A stretch of DNA of 43,273 nucleotides from Ilumatobacteraceae bacterium (lineage in GTDB: Bacteria; Actinomycetota; Acidimicrobiia; Acidimicrobiales; Ilumatobacteraceae), in contig JAHEKY010000017.1 of assembly GCA_024644465.1 (NCBI GenBank), positions 1-43,273 on the forward strand, read 5' to 3'. This document shows positions 18,521 through 28,112 of this stretch, one piece after another. Below the pieces are notes generated by a model. It saw only the letters and a list, made by a program, of their open reading frames with translations, did not search any database and was not told the DNA's origin. How positions within the stretch are numbered: position 1 is the first letter of the stretch; each line of letters begins with the position of its first letter. Both the position numbers and the translations under genes were made by a program.

Positions 18521-19189
18521 ATGACATTGCGAATCAACGACGAAGCCCCGAACTTCGACGCCGACACGACCGTTGGCCGGATCAACTTCCACGAGTGGCT
18601 CGGTGACGGCTGGGGTCTGCTGTTCTCGCACCCGAAGGACTTCACGCCGGTGTGCACGACCGAACTCGGCGCCGTTGCCGCGCTCGCGGACGACTTCACC
18701 CAGCGCAACTGCAAGATCATCGGCGTCAGCGTCGACGGCGTCTCCGACCACGACGCCTGGGTCGGCGACATCACGAAGGCGACCGGCCAGACGGTGAACT
18801 ACCCGCTGATCGGCGACCCCGAACTCGAGGTCGTGAAGCTGTACGACATGCTGCCCGGTGACTCGGGTGACACCTCCGACGGGCGGACCGCCGCCGACAA
18901 CGCCACCGCCCGTTCGGTGTTCATCATCGGCCCGGACAAGAAGATCAAGGCGACGTTGACGTACCCGATGACGACCGGCCGCAACTTCGCGGAGATCCTG
19001 CGGTTGCTCGACTCGTGCCAGCTCACCGCCAATCACCAGGTCGCGACACCCGCGAACTGGAACCAGGGCGAGGACGTCATCATCGTGCCGAGCGTCTCCG
19101 ACGAGGCGGCGGCCGAGAAGTATCCCGACGGCTGGGAGACCCGCCTGCCGTACCTCCGCTTCGTCAAGGAGGACGCGATCGGCCGCTGA
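18521..19189 (+). CDS. 1-Cys peroxiredoxin (Prx6-type)
   Basis: 222 aa. LRINDEAPNFDADTTVGRINFHEWLGDGWGLLFSHPKDFTPVCTTELG contains the peroxidatic Cys in the PVCTTE motif (about residue 45). The remaining Cys residues (RNCKI and DSCQL) are not in the usual resolving positions. The C-terminal dimerisation extension with NWNQGEDVIIVPSVSDEAA and a YLRF ending is the Prx6/1-Cys form. It reduces hydrogen peroxide and organic or lipid peroxides in the cytoplasm. AGGAGCAGGAG precedes ATG 18521. The actinobacterial reductant (mycothiol or another) cannot be read from the sequence. Confidence 0.95.
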   Translation: MTLRINDEAPNFDADTTVGRINFHEWLGDGWGLLFSHPKDFTPVCTTELGAVAALADDFTQRNCKIIGVSVDGVSDHDAWVGDITKATGQTVNYPLIGDPELEVVKLYDMLPGDSGDTSDGRTAADNATARSVFIIGPDKKIKATLTYPMTTGRNFAEILRLLDSCQLTANHQVATPANWNQGEDVIIVPSVSDEAAAEKYPDGWETRLPYLRFVKEDAIGR

Positions 19190-22998: not shown

Positions 22999-23073
22999 TC
23001 TCACGCTGACCCGACGCGGGCCCGATCGCACGACGTGGTCGGGCCCGCGGCGCGTCCGAACCGGCCGCCGCAG

Positions 23074-23090
23074 CTTGACGAAACCTTGAC
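23074..23090 (+). promoter_or_regulatory. Direct repeat CTTGAC at 11-base spacing
   Basis: CTTGACGAAACCTTGAC, two CTTGAC hexamers one helical turn apart, about 60 bases upstream of the selenoprotein candidate. It has the geometry of an OmpR/PhoB-type response-regulator site. Similar pairs occur at 1458-1474 and, as CTCAAG, at 8897-8913. Confidence 0.35.
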
Positions 23091-23147
23091 GATGAGGCGA
23101 CGCGTTCCGATGCGGTCGCGACGCATCCGGCGGGCCATGATCGGGGC

Positions 23148-23810
23148 GTGACGAACGCTCCGTCCACGTTCACCGACGCCCTGCTCGATCTGCGGCGGGC
23201 CGGCAGGGCGATCATCCTGACGACCCTCCGCGGTGACTGGTGACCGTACTGCTGCGGCCAGCTCGTGCGGCTGGCGTTCGAGACGGATCGGATCCACGAC
23301 GCCGGCGGTGAGGTGATCGCGATCAGCGTCGACGACGACGAACGCCAGGCCGCGATGTTCGCCCGCTGGCCGACGCCGCACGTGCGCTACGTCTCGGACC
23401 CGGACGGCGTGACGTTCCTGCGGCCGCTCGGCCTGTACGACCCCGAAGAACGTGGCGGCATCGCCCTCCCGGGCACACTCGTGTTCGACCCCGACGGCAC
23501 CGAGGTCTACCGCCATCGCGGACGTGACTTCGCCGATCGGACACACGACGAGGAGGCCTACGTCGCGCTCGAGGGCCTCGGCCTCGACCCGATCGACCCG
23601 CCGGCCGGCGGCCCTGTCGGCGCGGTCGACGTCGAACAGCGCGGTGTGTTCCAGCCCCGGATGCTCGGCGCGTACTTCCGCGGCAACCGTTCCGCGGTGA
23701 ACGCGCTGAGCCGGCGCGCGGTCGGCGACGAGACGCAGGCACTCGCCCGGGAACACCGGCTGATGTGTGATGTCACGCTCGCTGCGTGGGATGCAGTACG
23801 CGCCCGCTGA
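23148..23810 (+). CDS. Probable selenoprotein: peroxiredoxin-like thioredoxin-fold protein with UPYC redox motif (in-frame TGA read as Sec)
   Basis: 220 residues if TGA 23241-23243 is read as selenocysteine (U32). The frame runs from GTG 23148 to the stop at 23808-23810 with no other stop. Around it the translation is LTTLRGDW-U-PYCCGQL. AhpC/TSA-like peroxiredoxin relatives have RGDWCPYC at this point, so the TGA replaces exactly the first redox Cys while the second (C35) is kept. The fold continues normally: GGEVIAISVDDDE, VRYVSDPDGVTFLRPLGLYDP, ALPGTLVFDPDGTEVYRHRG. A hairpin follows the TGA. CATGAT with a six-base spacer precedes the GTG (leaderless). The alternative is a recent TGC-to-TGA nonsense change. 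Confidence 0.78.
23257..23275 (+). promoter_or_regulatory. Candidate bacterial SECIS hairpin
   Basis: GCCAGC-TCGTGCG-GCTGGC: six pairs and a 7-base loop whose first base is 20 positions after the last base of the TGA codon. The distance fits the window known for bacterial SECIS elements (about 16-37 bases). The loop contains G residues, but not at its first two positions when the stem is fully paired. Confidence 0.45.
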
Positions 23811-23880
23811 CCGCGAGCTGGCCTGGCCGGCCACGAGCCGCTCATCACCGAGCGCGACCCGACGGCCGGCGTCGTGAACG

Positions 23881-26288: not shown

Positions 26289-28112
26289 ATGTCCACGAAG
26301 CGAGCAGGCACCGCGCCGACCGCCCGCCGGCGAGTCGTCGTCGGTCTCACGGTCCTCGCGATGTCGATCGGCGCAGCCGCGTACGGGAACACGACGTCGG
26401 CGGCCAGCCACAAGGAGAAGAAGCCGAAGCGCGAGAAGGTCGTCGAACTCCAACTCCTGGCGTTCAACGACTACCACGGCCATGTCGAGGCGAACACGCC
26501 CGGCACGCTCGACGGCCAGCCGGCCGGTGGCGCCGCGTTCCTGTCGACGAAGCTGAAGCAGCTCCGCGAAGGCAACAAGTACAGTCTGACGGTCGCCGCC
26601 GGCGACCTGATCGGCGGCTCGCCCGCCTTCTCGGGCCTGTTCCACGACGAGCCGTCCGTGCACACGCTCAACGAGATGGGTCTCGACATCTCCGGCGTCG
26701 GCAACCACGAGTTCGACGAAGGCGTCGACGAGTTGCTGCGGATGCAGCACGGTGGTTGTCACCCCGTCGACGGGTGTTACTTCCCCGAGCCGTATCCGGG
26801 TGCCGACTTCCAGTGGCTCTCCGCCAACGTCGTCGAGACAGCGACCGGTCAATCGCCGCTGCCGCCGTACAAGATCGAGAAGATCAAGAACGTGCGCGTC
26901 GCGTTCATCGGCATGACGCTCGAGGCGACCGACACGCTCGTCGCAGCGTCGGGCATCGCCGGCTACGAGTTCCTCGACGAGGCCGAGACGGCGAACGCGC
27001 TCGTGCCGATCCTCAAGGCGCAGAAGGTCGAAGCGATCGTCGTGCTGCTGCACGAGGGCGGTTCGCAGACGCCCCCGCCCGGTGATCTCGACGCCTGCGT
27101 CGGCATCTCCGGCCCGATCGTCGCGATCAACGACGCGCTCGACCCCGAGATCGATGCGATCATCACCGGCCACACGCACCTGCCGTACAACTGCGTGCTC
27201 GACGACCCAGCGGGCGACCCGCGGATCGTCACGAGTGCCTACTCGTTCGGCCGGGTCGTCACCGAGGTGAACCTCGTGCTCGACCGCAAGACGCGTGACG
27301 TCCGCCGCGATCTCAGCTCTGCGGCCAACCACGCCGTGATCCAGGCGGGCCCCGCTGTTCCGGCAGGCGCCCGTTCCCTCACGCCGGACAACACGCCGGT
27401 CGAGGCGGATCCTGCGATCCAGTCGATCATCGAAGAGTGGCAACCGCTCGTCGACGCGGCCGGTGGGACGCCGATCGGCACGATCACCGCCGACATCACC
27501 CGCGGTGGAATCCCGACGGGTAGTGATCGCGGCGTCGAGTCGGCGGCCGGCAACCTCGTCGCCGACGCCCAGCTGTGGTCGACGTCGGCCAACGGTGCCG
27601 ATGTCGCATTCATGAACCCGGGCGGTGTCCGGTCGGACCTCACATACGCCCAGTCCCAGGATCCACCGGAAGGCGACGGTGTCGTCACGTTCGGCGAGGC
27701 GTTCACGTTCCAGCCGTTCGGCAACACCCTCATCACGTACGCGATGACGGGGGCGGAGATCATCTCCGTGCTCGAAGAGCAGTGCCAGCCGGCCGGTTCG
27801 AGCCGGCCGTTCCTGCACCTCGGCGTGTCGGACGGGTTCACCTACGACCTGTCGAAGACGATCGCGGCCGGTGACTGTGTTGCGGTCTCGATCACCAACG
27901 TCGAGCTGGACGGCGTCGCGCTGGACCCTGCGGCGACGTACAACGTGACGGTCAACAGCTTCCTCGCCGACGGCGGGGACAACTTCGTCACCCTCGGCGG
28001 CGTCACGTCGCCGCGGCTCGACGGTGGCAACGACCTCAACGCGCTGACGAACTACCTCGGCACGTTCGGGCCGGTGGCGCCACCATCCATCGATCGGGTC
28101 AACGAGGTCTAG
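26289..28112 (+). CDS. Secreted 5'-nucleotidase / UshA-family metallophosphatase
   Basis: 607 aa. A signal peptide (RRRVVVGLTVLAMSIGAAAYG...) is followed by a basic linker (HKEKKPKREK). The N-terminal metallophosphoesterase contains FNDYHGH, GDLIGGSP, GNHEFDEG and GHTHLPY, which supply the two-metal site. The C-terminal 5'-nucleotidase domain contains ESAAGNLVADAQ, MNPGGVRSDL and TFGEAFTFQPFGNTL, the usual substrate-binding blocks. It hydrolyses nucleotides outside the cell to nucleoside and phosphate. GGGAGAG precedes ATG 26289. It is placed after a secreted EEP protein, so the pair could degrade extracellular nucleic acid or nucleotide material. Two strong hairpins follow. Confidence 0.94.
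   Translation: MSTKRAGTAPTARRRVVVGLTVLAMSIGAAAYGNTTSAASHKEKKPKREKVVELQLLAFNDYHGHVEANTPGTLDGQPAGGAAFLSTKLKQLREGNKYSLTVAAGDLIGGSPAFSGLFHDEPSVHTLNEMGLDISGVGNHEFDEGVDELLRMQHGGCHPVDGCYFPEPYPGADFQWLSANVVETATGQSPLPPYKIEKIKNVRVAFIGMTLEATDTLVAASGIAGYEFLDEAETANALVPILKAQKVEAIVVLLHEGGSQTPPPGDLDACVGISGPIVAINDALDPEIDAIITGHTHLPYNCVLDDPAGDPRIVTSAYSFGRVVTEVNLVLDRKTRDVRRDLSSAANHAVIQAGPAVPAGARSLTPDNTPVEADPAIQSIIEEWQPLVDAAGGTPIGTITADITRGGIPTGSDRGVESAAGNLVADAQLWSTSANGADVAFMNPGGVRSDLTYAQSQDPPEGDGVVTFGEAFTFQPFGNTLITYAMTGAEIISVLEEQCQPAGSSRPFLHLGVSDGFTYDLSKTIAAGDCVAVSITNVELDGVALDPAATYNVTVNSFLADGGDNFVTLGGVTSPRLDGGNDLNALTNYLGTFGPVAPPSIDRVNEV

Follow-up and report, generated by a model that had tools for sequence, protein, structure and literature searches.

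Selenoproteins that pair a peroxiredoxin-like domain with a UxxC motif are a known kind, and reviews list among predicted selenoproteins both Prx-like thiol:disulfide oxidoreductases (PF00578, UxxC/UxxU) and a Redoxin family protein (PF08534, UxxC) (PMC13188914, PMC9312934), the latter of which PMC13188914 traces to the GOS study of 2008 and an ISME J study of 2016. Several Prx-like UxxC groups appear in the GOS study (PMC2398784), and for Actinobacteria a 2006 study gave 12 selenoprotein families, with apparently five selenoproteins counted in Rubrobacter xylanophilus (PMC1794560). The deep-Sep paper describes nine new families, for none of which a redoxin, Prx or AhpC word was found in its text (PMC12013277). 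The protein analysed here, encoded in a 43,273-nt stretch of DNA (the window) from an acidimicrobial actinobacterium, belongs to this known kind of Prx-like UxxC selenoproteins, and its branch is possibly already catalogued under a broad name; no description of this Acidimicrobiia Prx-like UxxC branch was found in the literature covered, namely the running text of mainly open-access papers. By description, it resembles the Prx-like thiol:disulfide oxidoreductase selenoproteins (published representative WP_010940744.1) in scoring over the PF00578 cut-off, in its UxxC motif (U32-P-Y-C35), in its predicted redox role and in having Sec for Cys, and differs from them in that the window branch carries a C-terminal helical extension, the signature RGD[W/F]UxYC, and Sec in 33/33 strong class homologues. 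It likewise combines UxxC with a score over the PF08534 cut-off, and compared by description with the Redoxin family selenoproteins (representatives HEU0032618.1 and MBA3499694.1) the two could be the same family. Sec peroxiredoxin (PrxU; PF00578, TxxU) shares the domain superfamily, and Cys35 of the window protein falls at its peroxidatic place; however, the window Sec stands three residues earlier, at the place of the Thr, PxxxTxx and the Arg are absent, and the NCBIfam PrxU model gives 14.8 bits against a cut-off of 270. The best NCBIfam match is to the SelL-related redox protein (NF040769), a model matched at E <= 0.001 by 22 of the 23 members of alignment A4 (the window protein and 22 relatives); the window protein scores 26.7 bits there, under the cut-off of 120, and no model of NCBIfam 20.0 exceeds its cut-off for this protein. 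The ResA/TlpA thiol-disulfide oxidoreductases also place a CxxC/UxxC ahead of the same helix, but no export segment is seen by eye in the window protein, whose N-terminus ahead of Sec is short, at 31 residues.

We infer, with a probability of roughly 0.93, that the gene at 23148-23810 (Table 1) is a functional selenoprotein gene of this acidimicrobial actinobacterium, with UGA decoded as Sec and a redox product. SelB and tRNA-Sec would decode UGA 23241 as selenocysteine, a hairpin just downstream would direct that decoding, and the resulting product, probably cytosolic, would combine the UPYC motif with a C-terminal two-helix extension.

Table 1. Coordinates of the predicted selenoprotein gene and of its features in the window
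Feature	Position	Strand	Remarks
Predicted selenoprotein gene	23148..23810	+	GTG start, 220 residues, Sec32, terminal TGA 23808-23810
In-frame TGA, predicted selenocysteine codon for residue 32, which opens UPYC	23241..23243	+	conserved codon
Cys35 and Cys36	23250..23255	+	Cys35 unchanged throughout the alignments made; Cys36 present in the window's clade
Predicted bacterial SECIS-like hairpin	23257..23275	+	stem 23257-23263/23269-23275, 7 bp (one U-G); loop CGUGC 23264-23268
Pro108	23469..23471	+	nearly invariant; 2cx3 and 2ywn have Arg at the aligned place
C-terminal helical extension, helices 170-190 and 194-219	23655..23804	+	AlphaFold2; beyond the Pfam matches, which end at residue 128

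Translated with TGA as U, the gene has a single internal TGA, in the context RGDW-U-PYCCGQL with its two Cys residues just after Sec32, and its GTG is the sole ATG, GTG or TTG upstream of the internal TGA in the open frame. The translation bears out an earlier note on this DNA, which had described one frame interrupted only by this TGA, flanked by RGDW and PYC with Cys35 kept, and had expected a standard caller to report a headless fragment from GTG 23265: the standard code splits the UPYC gene at the UGA into a 31-aa stub (23148-23243) and a 181-aa fragment (23265-23810). The full product matches AhpC-TSA (PF00578) at 49.2 bits (cut-off 26) and Redoxin (PF08534) at 45.1 bits (cut-off 26.6), and scores 16.3 bits with AhpC-TSA_2 (PF13911), below the gathering cut-off of 27. 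By itself the open frame is weak evidence, because the DNA is G+C-rich and the antisense strand is open too (23001-23834, 277 aa, without a Pfam match), and frame length was dropped as a line of argument; what lifts the observation above chance is the conservation of the TGA in homologues. Moreover, dN/dS downstream of the TGA is 0.19 to 0.44 in five pairs, indicating constraint at the protein level. That the TGA is a true stop between two separate pieces, or is translated as an ordinary amino acid, we consider highly improbable. The in-frame GTG 23265 could begin the 181-aa fragment, but that fragment would be without both the first strand and the motif, and on its own it falls marginally below two Pfam cut-offs (26.1 bits where 26.6 are required, 25.7 where 26 are) that the whole product clearly exceeds. 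Stop-free relatives mostly have Cys at this place (9/12 read), which fits Sec and argues against an ordinary residue, and reassignment of TGA throughout the genome is unlikely because the gene itself ends in TGA where relatives use TAA, TAG or TGA.

Decoding as Sec calls on a machinery that the earlier note had suggested looking for, and selA, selB, selD and tRNA-Sec are all found in the window's genome, a MAG of 3.37 Mb in 195 contigs (82.9% complete, 2.7% contamination) in which the window is contig C46. The tRNA-Sec scores 65.1 bits (gathering 47) and is called tRNA-SeC with anticodon tca by ARAGORN, selA scores 395.5 bits, selB (276.6 bits, with a C-terminal SelB winged-helix domain) lies directly after selA on one contig, and selD (272.8 bits) is partial, being cut by the contig end. 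Searches for tRNA-Sec, selB and selD give some signal in 14/14 control genomes and exceed the curated cut-off in only 5, 2 and 2 of them; the hits used for the window's genome are all over the cut-offs. These genes sit on contigs of the MAG other than the window's. A binning mix-up is not needed to explain the pairing, because the single-contig genome G002 from the window's family has both selA and a strong homologue. This selD (L047, G000:C169:3-608, minus strand) is a selenoprotein gene in its own right: a TGA stands in its frame, in GAG-U-GCK, and a strong hairpin lies beyond it.

Homologues proved numerous, which refines the earlier note. In the 296 class genomes searched, 65 show some match at E <= 0.001 and 33 a strong one (E below 1e-16); all 33 strong homologues have exactly one TGA, which is seen at the same codon in 31 of them (30 loci read and L099), the other two giving the count only. 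The weaker class matches (E 9e-9 to 9e-4) include some with TGA and some without, and among those fetched four read as Cys redoxins and one as another TGA-bearing redoxin. One weaker match with one TGA (L139, G209:C1:1655904-1656275) has a frame reading RGYL-U-PFCRRHLAQLRDD, and by its sequence is probably a different Prx-like UxxC selenoprotein. A scan of genome_contigs took as its query the part of alignment A2 after the TGA, and because A2 covers only that part the scan is neutral as to Sec or Cys at codon 32, its pattern YC[NCH]GQL[VA]... favouring this branch. It returned 48 loci, of which 47 carry the motif, all with TGA, and the last, L095, is a short stretch that lacks it. No fewer than 22 of these loci repeat contigs of the whole-genome sets, and since the loci overlap the homologue sets are not to be summed. 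By record title the genome_contigs loci include Acidobacteria, Thermomicrobiales, a Deltaproteobacteria MAG and a Euzebyaceae MAG, with the proviso that the title of a MAG is not always reliable (L069 is titled Armatimonadetes, yet its protein is that of G280, a genome placed in the window's class). The isolate Actinomycetospora cinnamomea DSM 45771 carries a TGA-bearing copy together with selA over cut-off, which makes the Sec claim directly testable. The gene is patchy, since two genomes of the window's genus have selA and no homologue match. This distribution bears on the possibility of a pseudogene or sequencing error, by which the TGA would be a recent lesion of a TGC or TGT Cys codon. 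The draft MAG has one copy of the gene, its TGA is one base from TGC, and Cys forms exist in another family; against this, the same codon is TGA in 30/30 class loci read and in 47/48 genome_contigs loci, drawn from different assemblies as well as one isolate, and constraint acts on the frame downstream. Since the TGA is conserved, a lesion is refuted as a general explanation, and for this gene we regard it as exceedingly improbable.

We found Cys forms of the protein by a profile search (A1) of 396 phylum genomes, and thus rejected the idea that no Cys form exists. The search gave 46 matches at E <= 1e-20, of which 31 have one TGA (at the same codon in 31/31), 13 are stop-free and two, in G569 and G413, have several stops and were set aside. 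The G413 match (G413:C1:2540174-2540743; 83 bits) contains two TGAs, its genome gives no selA match, and it may be a pseudogene or a chance read-through. All 13 stop-free matches fall in one family, f66, and the 12 that were read (all but G522:C68) comprise eight with RGDWC.YC, in which the second Cys is retained, one with WCAYD, in which it is lost, two with Ser and one with Asp at the place of Sec. Position 32 of the homologues, which the earlier note had proposed to align, is therefore Sec, or Cys in one other family, and no Cys form occurs among the 33 strong class hits or the 47 motif-bearing genome_contigs loci. Four f66 copies have altered active sites (L127, WSPFC; L130, WDPYC; L131, WSAYD; L132, WCAYD), and these sequences suggest a loss of the redox motif. 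For the tree we used 87 rows (76 Sec, 8 Cys and 3 Cys outgroup rows), reduced from 111 by dropping near-identical rows and leaving out fragments, the two frame-broken rows and altered-site copies. The Cys rows lie inside one 26-row clade (f66 and one f56 row) together with 18 Sec rows, with poor internal resolution; the Sec label needs three changes on the tree, at least two of them forced by well-supported branches. This would fit Sec being the older state in this branch, although the outgroup is Cys and partly long-branched.

Sec-bearing genomes of the class tend to have selA. In fact selA is over cut-off in 200/296 class genomes, and in 32/33 genomes with a strong hit (all at E <= 4e-111) vs 168/263 others (one-sided Fisher p 1.9e-5, uncorrected for kinship), the exception being G280, which is 84% complete. 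Among the genomes behind the genome_contigs loci selA is over cut-off in 8/10, L063's having a partial match and L061's none. Across the phylum, selA is over cut-off in 31/37 genomes checked. A strict pattern of Sec only with selA and Cys only without it was not found there: three Sec-bearing genomes of the phylum sample (G541, G551 and G632), draft assemblies like G280, have no selA match, and all six Cys-only genomes read (G464, G474, G484, G522, G577 and G625) have selA over cut-off, so that selA does not separate Sec from Cys in the phylum. Sec in 33/33 strong class homologues makes this branch a place to ask why Sec is kept.

Additional support for decoding of the UGA comes from the predicted hairpin just downstream. 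The bacterial SECIS model asks for an upper stem of 4-16 bp, a loop of 3-9 nt, a distance of 16-37 nt from the UGA, and a G within the first two loop places (PMC13188914); compared by hand, the window hairpin, with its loop starting 20 nt after the UGA, falls within every listed limit. Its pairing is kept in the window's clade, where 98.9% of cells are paired in 13 rows, as against 11.0 to 48.4% for slid controls, and among 14 distinct clade rows 12 keep 7/7 pairs and two keep six. Double changes affect two pairs, one replacing G-C by A-U in two rows and the other C-G by U-A in a single row, and of 500 shuffles only two reach the covariation score and 15 the number of double-change pairs; the number of pair types, one of five covariation measures, is no better than in shuffles (251/500). 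Against controls with randomised codons and a preserved protein, 30/30 genes fold better than the mean at the hairpin place (mean z -1.39), and in a scan of 50 windows along 20 of the 30 genes the hairpin window has the lowest z (-1.47, negative in 20/20), the next being -0.77. Measured against dinucleotide shuffles, the 51-nt fold of the window does not stand out (z -1.03); in all, nine sequences were folded in this way, eight giving values between -0.01 and -1.05 and one -3.70. The hairpin loses regularity beyond the window's clade, where some Sec rows pair at only 4 or 5 of 7 in the better of two stems; Cys rows keep 3 to 5 pairs, overlapping these weak Sec rows. A bulged stem B, considered as one structure for the whole family, is only partly kept and was rejected. 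The proposal of the earlier note, that this organism decodes UGA as selenocysteine, thus gains support from the machinery, the conserved TGA, the Cys counterparts and the hairpin, and suggests that some acidimicrobial actinobacteria, represented here mostly by MAGs, use selenocysteine in a conserved redox protein.

The AlphaFold2 model (mean pLDDT 93.1, pTM 0.88, with A4 as input) predicts a peroxiredoxin/thioredoxin domain followed by the C-terminal helical extension, with residue 32 just ahead of a helix at 33-44. Foldseek returns peroxiredoxin matches (PrxQ/Bcp, AhpC and AhpE), many over about 130 residues, and the profile search also matches ResA chains. Cys35 coincides in the alignments with the Cys that 2cx3 and 2ywn have at the peroxidatic place of peroxiredoxins, and Pro108 takes the place of an Arg in these two structures that we take to be the catalytic peroxiredoxin Arg; a conserved catalytic Arg is a feature of classical peroxiredoxins, and in the two alignments shown, which compare sequences only, Pro is found there instead. 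Likewise the PxxxTxx(C/U) motif is replaced by R28-G-D-W-U32-P-Y-C35, in which Arg28 and Sec32 stand at the places of Pro and Thr. The description of the protein as peroxiredoxin-like that had been given from the sequence thus holds for its fold and domain, but not for a classical peroxiredoxin mechanism, as PxxxTxxC and the Arg are absent. Because these two are missing we prefer a thioredoxin-like Sec/Cys cycle, in which Sec32 would most likely be the attacking selenolate and Cys35 would most likely serve to resolve it, giving a redox cycle of the thiol:disulfide (selenenyl-sulfide) type, and Pro108 might correspond to the thioredoxin-type cis-Pro. Judged from these residues the protein is rather more probably a Sec-dependent thiol:disulfide-type oxidoreductase than a classical peroxidase. 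That the selenoprotein is instead a genuine Sec peroxidase, as the Sec peroxiredoxins are, is possible but doubtful: its closest relatives by fold and by profile come from the Bcp/PrxQ/AhpC group of peroxiredoxins, Cys35 lies on the peroxidatic place and Sec could itself reduce peroxides, whereas Arg28 and Sec32 in place of Pro and Thr, together with Pro where 2cx3 and 2ywn have Arg, speak against it. Within the extension, Tyr176, Arg178, Gly179 and Arg190 are kept in at least 90% of rows. Tentatively, and with somewhat less than even confidence, we suggest that the oxidoreductase represents a distinct family, in which Sec would be ancestral and normal across several phyla, Cys (or Ser, Asp) would have come later in one actinobacterial family, and the C-terminal extension would be family-specific and serve some partner or substrate.

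The surroundings of the gene were compared by setting all frames against all others in the 47 genome_contigs loci and about 10 kb of the window, and clusters of at least five loci consist of the protein itself, shadows of it in other frames, or neighbours within two groups of close relatives, one of which also touches L062. Searches of plasmids and with PADLOC gave no match. UshA-like proteins are known as a selenoprotein family elsewhere (PMC9312934); the window encodes, at 26289-28112 on the plus strand, a UshA-like 5'-nucleotidase family protein with no in-frame TGA, whose product scores 44.5 bits with the UshA-like (seleno)protein model (cut-off 275). The window also contains an AhpC-TSA / 1-Cys peroxiredoxin gene at 18521-19189 on the plus strand, about 4 kb from the selenoprotein gene.
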